Assembly (NCBI GenBank): GCA_029936965.1
Contig: JAPYRG010000001.1
Coordinates: 88,685 to 152,684 of the forward strand
DNA from: Fidelibacterota bacterium
Lineage (GTDB): Bacteria > Fidelibacterota > Marinisomatia > Marinisomatales > TCS55
Direction of reading: 5' to 3'
Length of the DNA stretch: 64,000 nt
How positions within the stretch are numbered: position 1 is the first letter of the stretch; each line of letters opens with the position of its first letter. Below the pieces are notes generated by a model that was not told the DNA's origin, searched no databases, and saw only the letters and a program-made list of their open reading frames with translations. Made by a program: the position numbers and the translations under genes. Shown in pieces: positions 55,825 through 63,326 of this stretch.

Positions 55825-56910
55825 ATGAAAATACTCTATATATCTCCAGAAAACACGGTTAACACATTAACCATGTGGAAGCTGGCTCATAAAGAAAAGG
55901 GGAATAAATGCGAATTTATTACATTATTTAAATCCCGGAATAATTTTGACCCAGGGATTTGTTTAGATCTTCCTTTAGTTAATTCAAAATCTTGGTATAT
56001 GTTTTGGCGGCATAAATATTATCAATTATTTAGAGGAGCTTTAGGGGATTATAAGCAAAAAAATGGCTACCCCCCTATTTGGACACCTAATAGTAGAGTA
56101 GAAAAATATTTTTTTCATTTTCGGGATTGGCTGTGGAATTTTTATGTAGAACCAGCTATAAAAAAAAATAATTTATTTGATTATGATATATATCATTTTG
56201 AATGGGGATTAGAGTTTTACCGTGATTGTAGATTTGTAGATAAACTAATAGATTTAGATAAAGCTATTTCATGCACCTATCATGGCCAAGATTTAAGAAC
56301 CAGAGGAGTATTAAAACCTCTGAATAAGGCAAGTAAATTAAATATTACTAGTGAATTAGATTTGTTGAATAAACATCCTAATATGAAGTATATGTTTTTA
56401 CCTTATGATACAAAACAGTTTTCACATGATATAAAAATAAATGATCCAATTAGGATATGTCACGCTCCAACCGATAGGCACTATAAGGGGAGTGAAACAA
56501 TTATTCCAATTTGTGAGAGATTAGCTAAAGAAAAAGGAGTCGAGTTTATTTTGATAGAGGACAAGCCTTTTAATGAAGCACAGGAAATAAAAAAATCATG
56601 TGATATATTGATTGATCAAGTTCATAATAGAGGAGGATGGGGATACGGCATGAATTCAGTTGAAGGACTTTCAATGGGACTATGTTGTGTAACTGAACTA
56701 CTACCAGAATATGTTAATTTTATTCCAGACCACCCATTTATAAATGCAGATGGAGAATCATTATATGTTGTTTTATCTGAGTTAATTTGTAATAAGGATA
56801 AAATAATTGAATACAAGAAAAAAAGTTTTTCCTGGGTAGACAAATTTCATAATTATACTAATACTTCAAATGTATTATATAGCTATTATGAAGATCTTGG
56901 ATGGCTATGA
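55825..56910 (+). CDS. GT-B-fold glycosyltransferase, divergent
   Basis: This 361-residue protein begins MKILYISPENTVNTLTMWKLA and has a GT-B-like layout. The second half carries IRICHAPTDRHYKGSETIIP, VEFILIEDKPFNEAQEI, CDILIDQVHNRGGWGYGMNS and VEGLSMGLCCVTEL; the VEGLSMG stretch stands where GT4 enzymes have their EAMxxG motif. The N-terminal half has an unusual Trp/Tyr-rich region (SWYMFWRHKYYQLFRG). It is probably an O-antigen or capsule glycosyltransferase. The stop overlaps the next gene (ATGA). Confidence 0.8.
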   Translation: MKILYISPENTVNTLTMWKLAHKEKGNKCEFITLFKSRNNFDPGICLDLPLVNSKSWYMFWRHKYYQLFRGALGDYKQKNGYPPIWTPNSRVEKYFFHFRDWLWNFYVEPAIKKNNLFDYDIYHFEWGLEFYRDCRFVDKLIDLDKAISCTYHGQDLRTRGVLKPLNKASKLNITSELDLLNKHPNMKYMFLPYDTKQFSHDIKINDPIRICHAPTDRHYKGSETIIPICERLAKEKGVEFILIEDKPFNEAQEIKKSCDILIDQVHNRGGWGYGMNSVEGLSMGLCCVTELLPEYVNFIPDHPFINADGESLYVVLSELICNKDKIIEYKKKSFSWVDKFHNYTNTSNVLYSYYEDLGWL

Positions 56911-57803: not shown

Positions 57804-57869
57804 TAAATTTTTATTACCAAGCGTAGATTTTATATTTTAATTAATTATAATATTGCAATATATATAATT

Positions 57870-57892
57870 ATTCTTAAATTTGCTTTAAGAAT
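57870..57892 (+). other. Hairpin 1 of the small-protein leader
   Basis: ATTCTTAAA and TTTAAGAAT are perfect inverted 9-mers with a 5-base loop (TTTGC). It could be an RNA stem at the 5' end of the leader or a protein-binding operator. A weak promoter guess (TTGCAA 57853, TAAATT 57875) overlaps it, so which is right depends on the transcription start. Confidence 0.5.
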
Positions 57893-57897
57893 GGAAA

Positions 57898-57916
57898 TAT
57901 TCGTAAATAACGAATA
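57898..57916 (+). other. Hairpin 2 of the small-protein leader
   Basis: TATTCGT (57898-57904) pairs perfectly with ACGAATA (57910-57916) around loop AAATA. It lies six bases after hairpin 1 and 14 before the terminator-like stem. Confidence 0.5.
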
Positions 57917-57930
57917 CGTCACATGCCAAG

Positions 57931-57956
57931 AAACGGGGAGTTTTGTCTCCGTTTTT
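57931..57956 (+). terminator. Intrinsic terminator/attenuator stem ahead of the small-protein gene
   Basis: AAACGGGGA (57931-57939) pairs with TCTCCGTTT (57946-57954) over nine positions with one G-U and a six-base loop, followed by T-rich sequence. Termination here would give a free RNA of roughly 60-100 bases; read-through gives the small-protein mRNA, whose SD starts 16 bases later. This is the arrangement of an attenuator or of an sRNA gene. Confidence 0.7.
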
Positions 57957-57971
57957 ATTAAAAACCAAATC

Positions 57972-57978
57972 AAGGAGG
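57972..57978 (+). promoter_or_regulatory. Full-consensus SD (AAGGAGG) for small protein A
   Basis: Seven matches to the anti-SD complement with six bases to ATG 57985. This fixes the start over the longer in-frame ATG 57943 and stands out because most genes in the window have weak SD sites. Confidence 0.85.
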
Positions 57979-57984
57979 AACAAT

Positions 57985-58191
57985 ATGGCTGATGTAGCTT
58001 CAACCGTTAATTCCGTAGTAGGTGGAATCGTTAGTCTAATTAAAGGACTAGTCGTTTTCTTTGTTTTTGCTAATATACTATACCCAACAGGAATGGATCC
58101 TGTGTTGGGATTAACTGAACTAGTTAATTCCTTTATGGATGGTGGCATAGCAGGACTGCTCGCATTATTAATATTTGTTTCTTTCCTGTAG
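57985..58191 (+). CDS. Small two-TM membrane protein A (68 residues)
   Basis: The SD at 57972 sets the start. Two hydrophobic segments, about residues 12-33 (VGGIVSLIKGLVVFFVFANI) and 53-68 (GGIAGLLALLIFVSFL), are joined by an acidic loop (MDPVLGLTELVNSFMDG). The chain ends inside the second helix. There is no signal peptide, cysteine or lipobox. It is related to the next gene's product: both end in a (F/I)xDxGxAGLL-type helix, and both start MxDxxxxx before the first helix. I recognise no family. Features suggest a highly expressed membrane peptide; a holin-, bacteriocin- or stress-peptide-like role is speculation. A leftward 87-codon frame over it lacks family likeness. Confidence 0.8.
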   Translation: MADVASTVNSVVGGIVSLIKGLVVFFVFANILYPTGMDPVLGLTELVNSFMDGGIAGLLALLIFVSFL

Positions 58192-58214
58192 GTTAAAACA
58201 ATAGGGTATGATGT

Positions 58215-58238
58215 AGGACTCTTTGATATAAGAGCCCT
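58215..58238 (+). other. Hairpin between the two small-protein genes
   Basis: AGGACTCTT (58215-58223) pairs with AAGAGCCCT (58230-58238) with one A-C mismatch and a six-base loop. No T-run follows, so it is not a terminator; an RNA stability or processing element is more likely. Confidence 0.5.
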
Positions 58239-58256
58239 GGCCCTTCCTTAACATAT

Positions 58257-58262
58257 AGGAGG
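58257..58262 (+). promoter_or_regulatory. Full-consensus SD (AGGAGG) for small protein B
   Basis: Six bases separate AGGAGG from ATG 58269, the same spacing as at gene A. Confidence 0.85.
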
Positions 58263-58268
58263 AATTAT

Positions 58269-58484
58269 ATGAATGATGCGATAGCAAAGCTAACCGGTTG
58301 GATTGCAAAACTAACAGATTTACTTATTAGTTTGGTTGTCCTCGGAATAATCGTTGGTATTTTATTCAATGATCCTTTTGGCGTCATTGCAGGTGTAGGA
58401 AATTTATTCTCGCAGATTGGCGATAATGGCCTAGCGGGTTTATTGGTCCTGTATTTGATCTATATGATGTATCCGAACAAATAA
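58269..58484 (+). CDS. Small two-TM membrane protein B (71 residues), paralogue of A
   Basis: Hydrophobic segments lie at about 18-35 (LLISLVVLGIIVGILF) and 52-67 (GLAGLLVLYLIYMMYP). The loop FNDPFGVIAGVGNLFSQIGDN parallels the MDPVLGLTELVNSFMDGG loop of protein A, with the DP and the final G-(I/L)-A-G-L-L conserved. It is therefore a tandem duplicate that has diverged. Strong SD and a strong terminator 20 bases after the stop complete a two-gene unit. No family recognised. Confidence 0.8.
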   Translation: MNDAIAKLTGWIAKLTDLLISLVVLGIIVGILFNDPFGVIAGVGNLFSQIGDNGLAGLLVLYLIYMMYPNK

Positions 58485-58503
58485 ACCGATTATCTCAGCA
58501 ATT

Positions 58504-58538
58504 AATGATAACGCCCCTGAAAATGGGGCGCTATCATT
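58504..58538 (+). terminator. Rho-independent terminator after the small-protein pair
   Basis: AATGATA and CGCCCC (58504-58517) pair with GGGGCG and TATCATT (58525-58538), with one A-C mismatch, loop TGAAAAT and T-rich tail TTCTTATTT. Confidence 0.92.
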
Positions 58539-58607: not shown

Positions 58608-59723
58608 TTGTTAAAAATTATATTACTTCTATTACTATTAATCAATTGTAATGATAATAATTCTATCCATATAGTGATGAAGGGTAGAAATATTCCTTTA
58701 AATGATTTATCAGTATTAATTCCAAATAGATTTAAAGAAAGAATTACTAGATGGTATAAAGATAGGTCTCCAGCAGTTATTAGAACTTATGATATAATGA
58801 ATAATGAATTAATAAAGGAATTGCGTTATTTCAACAATGGAACATTAATGCATGAAGCAATTTATTCTAAAGGGGTTTTAGATCCTTATAATTCAGTTAT
58901 ATGGTGGCATTCAAATGGGAATCGATTGTCACAACTTATTGTCAATGAGAACCTGAAAATGACCCAAGGAAATATTTGGCATGATAATGGACAAATTCGT
59001 TTTCATTTTGAAGACAATAATTATTATTGGTGGGATAGAAATGGGGTATTAGAAGATAAAGGCGATTTAAATGATACAAGCTATGTTCTACCATCATGGT
59101 CTAATAATGGTAGGTTTATTGGTATACGCAAATTAATCAATAAATCTATACCTTTATGGTTAGAAGAGTGGACTTTATTCAATTATAATTATAATCCCTT
59201 AATTAAAGGCAATGTTTTATGCATAGTTCGTGATAATGAATCTGTGGATAGAGTTATTAATGAAGAATGGACACTAATTGATAGTTCTAGAGAATTAAAA
59301 TATTTACAACTATCTGCCCAAAAATTATTGAACACAACAACTGGGAAAAATAATTTTATTACTGGAGAAGACTGGATCATAAATAATGAAGAATATATCA
59401 ACTCATTATTAGATAGTAATAGTTCATACATAATTAATTCTGAAAAAAATTATTATAAAAGTCGACAGTTTAATCAAAATTATTATTTAAAACTCAATTC
59501 TGATGGCACATTTGATTATACTTGCCAAGATAAATATACAGATTCAGGGTATTATTGGCTGAATAATTCAGTGGGAAAATTATTTTTACATTATGAATCA
59601 GGTATATATGTTGGAGAAAATCATATGATAGAAATCATTAACCATCGGAAAATATTTTATCAGTTTAGAAATTCATATTATTTTCTTATGTCACCCCACG
59701 CTCAAATTAATTCCGATATATAG
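58608..59723 (+). CDS. Lipoprotein with YwqK/MORN-variant repeats
   Basis: The start is most likely TTG 58608, because it opens a lipoprotein signal with lipobox LINC (Cys14) and no ATG precedes it usefully. Residues about 65-165 show the repeat pattern of YwqK-type proteins (KELRYFNNGTLMHEAIYSKG, IWWHSNGNRLSQLIVNE, NIWHDNGQIRFHFED), where each unit carries a WxxNGxL turn. The rest is beta-rich and unassigned. YwqK relatives act as antitoxin-like or surface repeat proteins. No SD is visible. It starts a rightward run to the amidase gene. Confidence 0.75.
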   Translation: MLKIILLLLLLINCNDNNSIHIVMKGRNIPLNDLSVLIPNRFKERITRWYKDRSPAVIRTYDIMNNELIKELRYFNNGTLMHEAIYSKGVLDPYNSVIWWHSNGNRLSQLIVNENLKMTQGNIWHDNGQIRFHFEDNNYYWWDRNGVLEDKGDLNDTSYVLPSWSNNGRFIGIRKLINKSIPLWLEEWTLFNYNYNPLIKGNVLCIVRDNESVDRVINEEWTLIDSSRELKYLQLSAQKLLNTTTGKNNFITGEDWIINNEEYINSLLDSNSSYIINSEKNYYKSRQFNQNYYLKLNSDGTFDYTCQDKYTDSGYYWLNNSVGKLFLHYESGIYVGENHMIEIINHRKIFYQFRNSYYFLMSPHAQINSDI

Positions 59724-59762: not shown

Positions 59763-61274
59763 ATGCAAAAATCAGTTTTTAGAATATTTTATTTATCAAT
59801 AATCCATTTATCGCTATTGGCAAATATTTTTGCAGTTGACACATCAATTGGAGTGTTAAATATTATTGATAAAAATGAAGATGAATTATCTACAATAAAT
59901 TATAAAGGAGAACCTTATATATCTGTTAAAGATATTTCGAGGATTCTTTCAGATAGAAAGCCATATGAAAATGCGGCTAGACAAAAAATTGTTTTATATT
60001 TATCAGATAATAGAGTAAAGATATCCAATCTATCTAGCTTTATAATTGTTAATGATAAAATCTTTCAATTAACAAAACATGCGGTTGGGAAAGAAGAAGA
60101 TATTTATGTGCCTGCAAAATCTTTTTTTTCAATATTAAAAAATAGTATTTATCCAGGAGCGGATTATGATGCTGGGAAAAAATTATTAAGTTTGAATCTA
60201 ATTAACTTTAACATTAATAGCGTAAGCATTGAACAAAAATCAAATGGTACAATTTTAAGAATAAAAACATCTCAGCAATTTTCTGATGGTGATATTAGTT
60301 CTTTTATTAATGCTAATGGATGGTTTTATCTAACAGTAAAAGACGGTTTGGTTGACACTTCAATGATAAAAAAGACCGACACCAAAGGAGTAATAACAAA
60401 AGTTATTTCAAATCAATTTGATGAATCTGCTCAATTAGCGTTCCGAATTCGTACTGAAATTATTGGGCATGAAGTTTATCAAAGTAGTGACCCTAACGCG
60501 ATAGTTGTAACTCTAAGAACCCCATTTAATAAACTATCTTCTCATATAAAAGAACTGAAGAATCGATGGAGGTTAGACACCATAGTTCTTGATGCGGGTC
60601 ATGGAGGGAAAGATGGAGGCGCCGTAGGAAAGAGAGGGGCAAAGGAAAAAAATATTGTTTTAGATATCACAAAAAGAGTCGGCTCGTTGATTGAAAAAAA
60701 TTCTCATATAAAGGTTGTTTATACAAGAGAAGAAGATATATTTGTACCTCTTTGGAGAAGAACTCAAATTGCAAATGCAACCAACGGAAAACTATTTGTA
60801 AGTATTCATGTAAACTCTAATCCAAATAGGAATGTTAGAGGCTTTGAAACTTATTTGCTAAGACCGGGTAAAACAGATGATGCTATTGAAGTAGCTTCCA
60901 GAGAAAATTCAGCAATTAGAATGGAGGAAGGCAAATCAAGAAATAAGTACAGCTCTATGACAGGAGAAAAATTAATCATGGCCACGATGGCTCAAAGTAT
61001 GTTTATGAAAGAAAGTGAAGATCTTGCTGCTTATATACAAGATGAATTAGACCGATTATTAGATTCTCCTAATAGAGGGTTAAAACAAGCAGGCTTTTAT
61101 GTTTTAATTGGTGCAAGTATGCCAAATGTCTTAGTTGAGGCAGGATATATTTCTAATCCAAATGAAGAAAGAAAATTAAAATCTTCTTCCTATAGGCAAA
61201 AGATAGCAAAAGGGATTTATGCAGGGATTGTGAGCTTTAGAAAATCAAAAGAACAAATAATGTCTGATAATTAA
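59763..61274 (+). CDS. N-acetylmuramoyl-L-alanine amidase (AmiC-like)
   Basis: After a signal peptide (about 1-24) there is an AMIN/copper-amine-oxidase-like N-terminal region (about 30-250). An Amidase_3 domain occupies about 270-495: VLDAGHGGKDGGAVG (first zinc His), KNIVLDITKRV with Glu, VSIHVNSNPN (second zinc His), and VLVEAGYISNPNEE (catalytic Glu). All catalytic residues are present. It splits daughter-cell peptidoglycan by cutting the MurNAc-alanine bond. The stop overlaps murI by one base. Confidence 0.94.
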   Translation: MQKSVFRIFYLSIIHLSLLANIFAVDTSIGVLNIIDKNEDELSTINYKGEPYISVKDISRILSDRKPYENAARQKIVLYLSDNRVKISNLSSFIIVNDKIFQLTKHAVGKEEDIYVPAKSFFSILKNSIYPGADYDAGKKLLSLNLINFNINSVSIEQKSNGTILRIKTSQQFSDGDISSFINANGWFYLTVKDGLVDTSMIKKTDTKGVITKVISNQFDESAQLAFRIRTEIIGHEVYQSSDPNAIVVTLRTPFNKLSSHIKELKNRWRLDTIVLDAGHGGKDGGAVGKRGAKEKNIVLDITKRVGSLIEKNSHIKVVYTREEDIFVPLWRRTQIANATNGKLFVSIHVNSNPNRNVRGFETYLLRPGKTDDAIEVASRENSAIRMEEGKSRNKYSSMTGEKLIMATMAQSMFMKESEDLAAYIQDELDRLLDSPNRGLKQAGFYVLIGASMPNVLVEAGYISNPNEERKLKSSSYRQKIAKGIYAGIVSFRKSKEQIMSDN

Positions 61275-62074
61275 TGTCAGATAATAGACCCTTAGGAATT
61301 TTTGATTCTGGATTAGGCGGCCTTACAGTTGTAAATGCGATAAAACAGAAAATTCCCAATGAACATATCGTGTATGTTGGAGATACTGCGCGGGTACCGT
61401 ATGGAAATAAAAGCGTACAGCTTATAGTTAAATTTTCTTCACAAATAACGCAGTTTCTTTTAGAAAAGGATGCAAAATTAATTGTTGTAGCATGTAATAC
61501 TGCATCAGCACTTGCTTTACCCACGCTTCAAAATGAGTTTAATATTCCCATTATAGGCGTAATAACTCCAGGGGCTAATTCTGCAGCTGAATTAACAAAA
61601 AATAATAAAGTGGGGGTTATAGGAACAATTGCAACAATAAACTCAAAAGTTTATCAAAAGGAATTATTTAAAATCAATCCTTTAATAAATACTATATCCC
61701 AAGCATGCCCCTTGTTTGTTCCTCTAGTTGAAGAAGGTTTATTAGAAGGTCCAATAGTTTCTGCTATAATAGCACACTATATTAAGAACCTTGACTTATC
61801 AAGAATTGATACACTGATATTAGGCTGTACTCATTATCCGCTATTAAAACCAGCAATTAAAAAATATATTAATAATCTTATGTTAATTGATTCAGCAGAT
61901 TCTATTGCAAAAGAAGCATATTTGATTTTAAAAAATAATCATATAATTAATGATAATACAAAACAAGGACAGCAAGATTTTTATGTAACAGATTCCCCTT
62001 CAAATTTTGCAAATATTGCTAGAAGATTTTTAGGATATCCTATTCAAAATGTTAAAACAGCACCAATCAGCTGA
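61274..62074 (+). CDS. murI: Glutamate racemase
   Basis: The two catalytic Cys regions are intact: IVVACNTASALALPTL with Cys near residue 75 and LILGCTHYPLLKPAI with Cys near 185. The start IFDSGLGGLTVVNAI and VGDTARVPYG are further signatures. It makes D-glutamate for peptidoglycan. It starts one base inside the amidase stop and its 3' end overlaps folC by 26 bases, so the three genes form one operon. Confidence 0.96.
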   Translation: MSDNRPLGIFDSGLGGLTVVNAIKQKIPNEHIVYVGDTARVPYGNKSVQLIVKFSSQITQFLLEKDAKLIVVACNTASALALPTLQNEFNIPIIGVITPGANSAAELTKNNKVGVIGTIATINSKVYQKELFKINPLINTISQACPLFVPLVEEGLLEGPIVSAIIAHYIKNLDLSRIDTLILGCTHYPLLKPAIKKYINNLMLIDSADSIAKEAYLILKNNHIINDNTKQGQQDFYVTDSPSNFANIARRFLGYPIQNVKTAPIS

Positions 62075-63326
62075 TATTAATCATATCTTAGAGAAGCTTT
62101 TTAAACTACAACGCCTAGGAATAAAAGTTGGTTTAGACCATACCTACGAATTATTGAATAGATGTGGAAATCCACATAATAAGCTAAAAACTATTCATAT
62201 TGCAGGAACAAATGGCAAGGGGTCTACAGCAGCTATTCTCCAAAGTATTTTACGGACAGCTGGTTTAAAAGTTGGGCTGTACACATCACCTCATTTAGTA
62301 AGTTTTAATGAAAGAATCAGAGTAAATGGCATCCCAATTTCTGATGATTTTATTATTGAGTTTATGAAAATGTTAAATGATGATATTGATGAAATAAAAT
62401 CAACCTTTTTTGAAACAACTACCGTTTTAGCATTATATAATTTTTTTATTGAAAAAGTTGATGTAGCAATTATTGAAGTTGGTTTAGGTGGAAGATTAGA
62501 CTCTACAAATGTATTAGAACCAAATCTTACAATTATCACATCTATAGATATTGATCACCAAAATATTTTGGGCGAAACTATTAACGAAATAGCATTTGAA
62601 AAAGCTGGAATAATAAAAAAAGACACACCAGTTATTACTTCTAATCAGCCAAAAGAAGCATTGGACATTCTTATTGGTAGAGCAAAAATATTAAATTCTA
62701 AAATTGAAATAGTTAATAATCCCGAAAAAATTATTATTGATTGGCGTTTTACAAATTTTGTTGTTGAAAAAAAGGAGTTCTCAATTCCTTTATTAGGGGA
62801 ACATCAAGCTTACAATGCTTCATTGGCAATTAGAGCTTCAAGCCTTTTTGTGGATGGGTTAAGTTATCAAACAATTAATGATGGGCTTAAGAATACAATA
62901 TGGCCAGGACGTTTTCAGTTGCTGGATAAAAAACTACCTATTTTCTATGACGTAGCACATAACTCTGCTGGAATTAACACAATTAGGTCAACTTTAAAAT
63001 CTTTAAATGCTATTAACTATATTGGTCTCATTATTTTAAAAGAGGATAAGAAAGTTGATCTAATTGCTAAAGCGCTTAATGGCTTATTTGATGAATTAAT
63101 TGTATCAACATTGCCAAATTCGCAATTAATGGATAAAAATGAATTATTTAATTCTTTAAAAAATAATAATATTAAATGCAAAGTGATTTACCCTATTGAA
63201 AAGGCGTTTTGTTATATTTCAGATAAAGCAGAAAAAGGGGACATCAGTATAATTTTTGGTAGTCATTATGCAGCAAAATCAATATATAAATTTTTTGAAA
63301 TTAATTTTGACAATGTCAGTATCTAA
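62049..63326 (+). CDS. folC: Folylpolyglutamate/dihydrofolate synthase
   Basis: A Mur-ligase-fold enzyme of 425 residues with HIAGTNGKGSTAAIL (P-loop), VGLYTSPHLVSFNERI, EVGLGGRLDSTN, SIDIDHQNILG and the C-terminal FYDVAHNSAGI domain. It adds glutamate to folates (and to dihydropteroate if bifunctional). It overlaps murI by 26 bases and is followed by a 90-base gap before rho. Whether dihydrofolate synthase activity is present cannot be read off. Confidence 0.95.
   Translation: MLKQHQSADINHILEKLFKLQRLGIKVGLDHTYELLNRCGNPHNKLKTIHIAGTNGKGSTAAILQSILRTAGLKVGLYTSPHLVSFNERIRVNGIPISDDFIIEFMKMLNDDIDEIKSTFFETTTVLALYNFFIEKVDVAIIEVGLGGRLDSTNVLEPNLTIITSIDIDHQNILGETINEIAFEKAGIIKKDTPVITSNQPKEALDILIGRAKILNSKIEIVNNPEKIIIDWRFTNFVVEKKEFSIPLLGEHQAYNASLAIRASSLFVDGLSYQTINDGLKNTIWPGRFQLLDKKLPIFYDVAHNSAGINTIRSTLKSLNAINYIGLIILKEDKKVDLIAKALNGLFDELIVSTLPNSQLMDKNELFNSLKNNNIKCKVIYPIEKAFCYISDKAEKGDISIIFGSHYAAKSIYKFFEINFDNVSI

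Follow-up and report, generated by a model that had tools for sequence, protein, structure and literature searches.

A conserved tandem pair of small paralogous membrane proteins in Marinimicrobia (SAR406)

We analysed two adjacent small genes, here called A and B, in a 64,000-nucleotide stretch of DNA (the window) whose host genome, of 2.14 Mb and 97% complete, belongs to the Marinimicrobia (SAR406, Fidelibacterota). The two genes encode a real, unusually conserved and unannotated pair of proteins. As judged from the DNA sequence, the pair constitutes its own transcription unit, with its own promoter, a structured leader, strong Shine-Dalgarno sequences (SDs) and its own terminator. The best explanation, to which we assign a probability of roughly one half, is that A and B are two paralogous subunits of an abundant, Marinimicrobia-specific inner-membrane hetero-oligomer encoded by this autonomous transcription unit. 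The pair represents a new family among the tandem paralogous small membrane proteins, a kind already known; anything categorical would require a function.

All features of the pair lie on the plus strand. Gene A (57985..58191) encodes a protein of 68 amino acids, and gene B (58269..58484) encodes a paralogue of 71 amino acids with a basic C-terminus. An earlier note on this DNA had described the two products as related, and both open reading frames proved to be real genes whose profiles are homologous (profile-profile E = 1.3e-26). The AlphaFold2 monomer models of A and B share one three-helix layout, with helices at residues 2-32, 39-51 (A) or 39-52 (B), and 55-67. The mean pLDDT was 83.8 for A and 89.8 for B, and the pTM was 0.48 and 0.57, respectively. 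The long first helix is amphipathic at its start and runs on as the first transmembrane segment (TM1); it is followed by an amphipathic middle helix and by a last helix that corresponds to TM2. The earlier description of the proteins as two-TM is plausible, but TM2 is short. Both proteins have an acidic loop with a mean net charge of about -2.1; the C-terminus is basic in B (+1.7) and near neutral in A (-0.45). By the positive-inside rule, the acidic loop and the basic C-terminus of B suggest an N-in/C-in topology, for which the charges of B are the main indication.

Relatives of the pair, with the tandem kept, were retrieved in about 140 of the 245 Marinimicrobia/Fidelibacterota genomes. By profile, matches were found in 138 genomes (A profile), 135 genomes (divergent-subtype profile) and 145 genomes (mixed profile at a loose cut-off). 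Nearly all positive genomes contained exactly two matches, adjacent and in unchanged order, and the gap from A to B was nearly constant (median 66 nt). Among 61 related genomes, 55 had a match at a loose cut-off, and most of these matches were strong. Coverage amounted to about 56% of all genomes of the phylum and 60% of the near-complete ones. No convincing match was obtained in families f12 and f13 or in many deep families, including some near-complete f13 genomes. Since near-complete genomes without a clear match exist, the pair is common in the phylum but not universal, and is not essential to the phylum as a whole. A scan of 84,980 prokaryotic species, based on short patterns that could miss distant homologues, yielded 91 stretches encoding relatives. 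The 80 that were kept are Marinimicrobia or unnamed MAGs/FCB bacteria, and all named relatives belong to this phylum. No homologue of the pair was found in the viral contigs, plasmids and phages searched.

In a tree of the pair members, the first and second genes formed separate groups, with 3 label changes versus 23 in shuffles; one of the three is a gene-order artefact at locus L130, where the contig reads B-A-B. The divergent subtype likewise splits first from second genes on the tree, the alignment of which has so few columns that the number of duplications is uncertain. The gene phylogeny and gene order demonstrate an ancient duplication, retained as an A-B tandem and vertically inherited with the lineage. 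Family f9 (L034, L045, L067) carries two near-identical copies of the entire unit in a head-to-tail arrangement (ABAB), with the order kept. In family f30 (L182-L185), which is placed outside the class, A (well supported) and B (weakly) group with f6 (L046) of the window's order, which suggests either that both genes moved together inside the phylum or that the taxonomy is mixed up.

Like the FESNov synapomorphic families, the pair is lineage-restricted, has a low pN/pS and a conserved context, and lacks annotation. The synapomorphic criterion is at least 90% clade coverage with 100% specificity (PMC10849945). The pair differs from this in its phylum-level coverage (138 of 245 genomes), which is below 90%, whereas its specificity holds in the collections searched. 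The main text of the FESNov paper does not mention this phylum, and the catalogue may already hold the A/B family under a number. We found no paper on the A/B pair in the literature.

Comparisons within and between species demonstrate strong purifying selection on both A and B. The within-genus pN/pS of the pair was 0.03-0.12. In same-genus comparisons, protein identity was 98.5% for A and 96-98.6% for B; ribosomal proteins reached about 76-98%, and flanking genes, among them enolase, 72-86%. In three species comparisons, identity of A was 98.5, 98.5 and 92.6%, while flanking genes ranged from 50 to 86% and ribosomal proteins from about 66 to 98%. Synonymous divergence of A was 0.19, 0.21 and 0.39, in each case lower than for any flanking or ribosomal gene, and that of B was low in two of the three comparisons. 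By these measures, the constraint on A and B equals that of the best ribosomal proteins.

The pair was found in at least five unrelated neighbourhoods, among housekeeping and envelope genes. The earlier suggestion that the pair has no tie to the flanking cell-wall and polysaccharide genes agrees with this result, because other families hold the pair in different neighbourhoods; a functional link to amidase, MurI, FolC and Rho is ruled out on the same grounds. The amidase-MurI-FolC-Rho order itself (59763-63326 in the window, and in relatives) is the same in many families of the order, whichever genes lie on the other side of the pair. Two further genes of the window lack a Pfam match. A 371-aa open reading frame at 58608-59723, 3' of the terminator, has repeated 'NGxL..E..Y..G' motifs. 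Few genera have it at that place, where other lineages carry a gene resembling an outer-membrane barrel together with a second long gene. A 361-aa open reading frame at 55825-56910, beside glycosyltransferases, is kept at its place in 67 loci.

The SD of A, AAGGAGG (57972..57978), lies inside a conserved AACCAAA(C/T)CAAGGAGG block, and the SD of B is AGGAGG (58257..58262). Each is located 6 nt before its ATG, which corroborates the consensus SDs at identical spacing reported earlier. Strong SDs are otherwise rare in this phylum: with up to five starts tried per gene, 76% of 961 neighbouring genes still lacked any SD-like match of 4 nt or longer. A match of at least 5 nt preceded 98% of A, 88% of B and 5% of neighbouring genes; the corresponding figures for AGGAGG itself were 76%, 39% and 1%. 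The median SD pairing energy was -11.2 kcal/mol for A, -9.3 kcal/mol for B and -4.8 kcal/mol for neighbours; in the window the values were -11.2 (A) and -10.2 kcal/mol (B). Pairing energies were computed with the 16S tail of a relative. No intact 16S copy was found in the window's own assembly; the anti-SD is intact in eight relatives. In the window's own genome, AAGGAGG-N4-8-ATG occurred 36 times versus 14 times in the control, and the genes concerned include ones reading as groEL and tatA. Some ribosomal-protein genes of this genome also bear SDs.

Furthermore, the C-ending codons AAC, TAC, TTC and ATC were raised in A and B over neighbours across 80 loci. With a codon score based on ribosomal proteins of the own genome, neither A nor B was biased, and hence the codon claim rests on the multi-locus comparison. 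From SDs that are strong in a phylum with few of them, from the raised C-ending codons and from reduced synonymous divergence, we strongly infer high expression of A and B. The earlier note had proposed high expression of the pair, and these signals make it likely.

In the hetero-oligomer that we favour, A and B would each be N-in/C-in: an amphipathic N-terminal helix would lead into TM1, and a second amphipathic helix, acidic and lying on the periplasmic side, would precede a short TM2. The two proteins would co-assemble, by analogy, into a small ring or array, and such co-assembly would account for the strict retention of both genes, one after the other. The assembly could serve in membrane organisation, in ion conduction or in the support of an envelope complex. 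Both the hetero-oligomer and its function are what we infer here. A further claim, tentative and somewhat doubtful, is that A and B form an inner-membrane hetero-oligomer that is hitherto unknown and highly abundant, is a defining part of the cell in most lineages of this phylum, itself among the commonest uncultured phyla of the ocean, and has no counterpart in other bacteria.

Alternatively, A and B may be small accessory subunits of a large respiratory, transport or secretion complex that is encoded elsewhere. Small conserved membrane proteins without a neighbourhood link are often accessory subunits, for example SecE/SecG, TatA and AcrZ, and the TatA-like gene in this genome has the same rare strong SD. 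However, no partner is indicated, and two near-equal paralogues that always occur together argue for mutual partnering. We consider this explanation unlikely.

A TTG-N19-TAAATT[TC] promoter was found upstream of A in most loci. Of 112 distinct loci, 81 have the TAAAT[TA] element 80-150 nt 5' of A, and most of those listed also have a TTG about 19 nt further upstream. An element of the form TTG / TAnnTTTG, with the TTG 19-20 nt upstream, is a promoter form known from Bacteroidetes. The promoter of the window (57851..57882), with TATTG at 57851-57855, a 19-nt spacer and TAAATTTG at 57875-57882, matches this Bacteroidetes-type form in sequence (TTG-N19-TAAATTTG). We conclude that TAAATTTG is the -7 element of the predicted promoter of the pair; transcription probably starts near 57890, giving a leader RNA of about 95 nt. 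The promoter covers most of the first of three leader hairpins (57871-57891) proposed in the earlier note. Its overlap with the -7 element places this hairpin no further downstream than the transcription start and rules it out as leader RNA, so that two of the three hairpins remain.

The leader of the window gave a better fold than any of 200 shuffles (z = -3.6). Its first hairpin, P1 (57898..57916; TATTCGT-AAATA-ACGAATA), is followed by a CACATGCC element, at the position of which related loci have ACATACC; other clades have a hairpin of different sequence at the place equivalent to P1. The second hairpin, P2 (57931..57956), is a stem-loop with a T-run that ends 15 nt 5' of the SD of A, and its identification as terminator-like holds. 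Among 113 distinct leaders, 28 have a terminator-like hairpin and 62 have a hairpin without a T-run, whereas 0.4% of the shuffles were terminator-like. In 13 of the leaders with a terminator-like P2 the upstream gene runs on the opposite strand, and in such divergent loci the element cannot serve an upstream gene.

The covariation expected of a conserved leader was obtained in part. In the enolase-divergent clade, RNAalifold predicts a GTGG/CCAC hairpin and an outer AAUUGAAC/GUUCAAUU helix enclosing the terminator-like hairpin. Six pairs change on both sides, a count that is inflated by related sequences (according to a warning of the tool) but was reached by 0 of 500 shuffles; slid controls collapse. 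The f7 clade has an analogous helix, GAUUG/CAAUC, with some covariation in its inner pairs, and its T-run is often lost. In the window's own clade, little besides P2 aligns. The covarying helix surrounds P2 and does not compete with it, and no mutually exclusive antiterminator or aptamer with covariation was found in the leader alignments.

At the other boundaries of the unit, the hairpin between A and B (58203..58246) did not stand up: it is not better than shuffles in the window (z = -0.6), and the count of hairpins in A-B spacers (81 of 106) is one without a shuffle control. The GC-rich terminator 3' of B was confirmed as a near-palindromic intrinsic terminator (about 58504..58538; fold z = -4.3), and a terminator-like element follows B in 83 of 113 loci.

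These leader and SD signals also bear on a different explanation, namely that regulation is the defining feature of the pair, through premature termination in the leader and/or SD-dependent translation by bS21-less ribosomes, with A and B as a stress- or state-switched pair. The terminator-like P2, including that in divergent loci, and the covarying helix that encloses it are consistent with this explanation, but the T-run is missing in one large clade in which the hairpin is kept, no aptamer-like core is conserved across clades, and Rfam searches of the window and of the locus at a low threshold gave nothing credible. The attenuation suggested by the earlier note thus retains a conserved P2 that covaries in one clade and loses the T-run in other clades, where a weak hairpin is left. 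Attenuation in the leader is possible, and a stabilising or insulating 5' structure, at least as likely as a switch, is favoured here in view of a dispensable T-run and a covarying helix that lies around the hairpin.

The ribosome-based variant draws on rpsU. The upstream region of rpsU in this genome (L258; G000:C2:113500-113661) has AAGGAGGTGA before a TTG start, an extended SD in which 10 bases can pair with the 16S tail (-17 kcal/mol). An extended SD of rpsU is a hallmark of bS21 autoregulation in Bacteroidota, in a text that is silent on this phylum (PMC9976891), and the rpsU of the window's genome may extend anti-SD sequestration to Marinimicrobia. The A/B pair resembles the Bacteroidota system (PMC9976891) in having a strong SD in a lineage that seldom uses SDs. 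It differs in SD length, which is 9-13 bp in Bacteroidota rpsU and about 6-8 bp in A/B. With -11.2 and -10.2 kcal/mol, the SDs of A and B are far weaker than that of rpsU (-17.0 kcal/mol) and weaker than the threshold of -13 kcal/mol, and A and B were rejected as rpsU-like genes regulated by bS21 and the anti-SD. Together with the SDs on some ribosomal-protein genes, these values fit ordinary high expression. Regulation as the defining feature is hence an account that will probably not hold. In the hetero-oligomer reading, the leader hairpins would protect the 5' end and leave the SD accessible, so that the short mRNA would be stable and heavily translated.

No named family was recognised for the pair initially, and this still stands after searches of Pfam, NCBIfam, PHROG, Rfam, PDB sequences and PDB folds, none of which gave a significant match. 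The Pfam, NCBIfam and PHROG searches covered single members as well as 41-42 diverse members. The PDB sequence search and Foldseek against the PDB likewise returned nothing significant; for a helical protein of 70 residues, the lack of a structural analogue by Foldseek is weak evidence. Matches to RecA and photosystem I were discarded as chance matches in composition.

By profile, the nearest named family is TrbC/VirB2. PF04956 (TrbC) was matched by 10 of 42 A-type proteins (best E = 1.9e-4) and PF04610 (TrbL) by 5 of 41 B-type proteins (best E = 6.5e-4), and NCBIfam gave single weak matches to TraA and holins. A and B might accordingly be pore- or filament-forming proteins, i.e. a holin-like channel, or a TrbC/VirB2-like pilin (A) with a TrbL/VirB6-like partner (B). 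Mature VirB2-type pilins are helical proteins of about 70 residues with two hydrophobic segments, as are A and B. However, the matches listed stay under the gathering scores: for PF04956, the best member among the matches listed reached 21.5 bits versus a gathering score of 27.9, and A of the window had no match. TrbC/VirB2 is N-out/C-out and has a Sec signal peptide, whereas the charge pattern of A and B suggests the opposite topology, and no signal peptide is apparent in their N-termini (MADV.../MK...) when read directly. Unlike TrbC/VirB2, the pair is chromosomal and vertically inherited, is absent from the plasmids, phages and viral contigs searched, and has no recognised conjugation or T4SS genes (VirB4, VirB6, coupling protein) among its neighbours. 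With matches below threshold, we do not place A and B in this family, and consider a pore or pilin quite improbable. A phage holin in particular was rejected, with no significant PHROG match, no viral or phage homologue, and NCBIfam holin matches of E = 0.03-0.1 only.

Nine A-type members matched CvpA (Colicin_V, PF02674; best E = 0.0019), with which the A type has a G..G..KG helix motif in common. A of the window scored 15.9 bits (cut-off 29.3) over residues 4-38, corresponding to positions 90-124 of the 144 in the profile. CvpA is a larger multi-TM protein, and the match of A spans 35 residues only.

In gene organisation, the pair resembles pufBA/pucBA, which are tandem genes for tiny membrane proteins with strong SDs, intergenic hairpins and a structured leader, and whose products are the two different subunits of an abundant array (light-harvesting alpha/beta). 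The likeness is one of organisation alone, as A and B have two hydrophobic segments instead of one and are clear paralogues. Identity with light-harvesting alpha/beta proteins was rejected, because A and B lack a conserved His such as the one that ligates bacteriochlorophyll in those proteins, and no phototrophy genes were seen nearby.

A toxin-antitoxin or bacteriocin-immunity pair of small hydrophobic peptides, to which the size, the tandem layout and weak matches to phenol-soluble modulins and one to circular bacteriocins would point, is very improbable given the same fold and comparable constraint in both proteins, the phylum-wide vertical inheritance with conserved synteny, and the lack of mobility and of a patchy strain distribution.

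Marinimicrobia/SAR406 occur widely in dark and low-oxygen ocean waters, and almost none of them are in culture; Fidelibacter multiformis IA91 (genome AP035449, cited in PMC11652737) has been cultured. The pair combines the strongest local translation signals and ribosomal-protein-like conservation with a lack of annotation. On the strength of these signals, it is likely to be a major membrane component that has been absent from gene-centred studies of the phylum, and its promoter and SD pattern offer a handle on gene expression signals in Marinimicrobia/SAR406.
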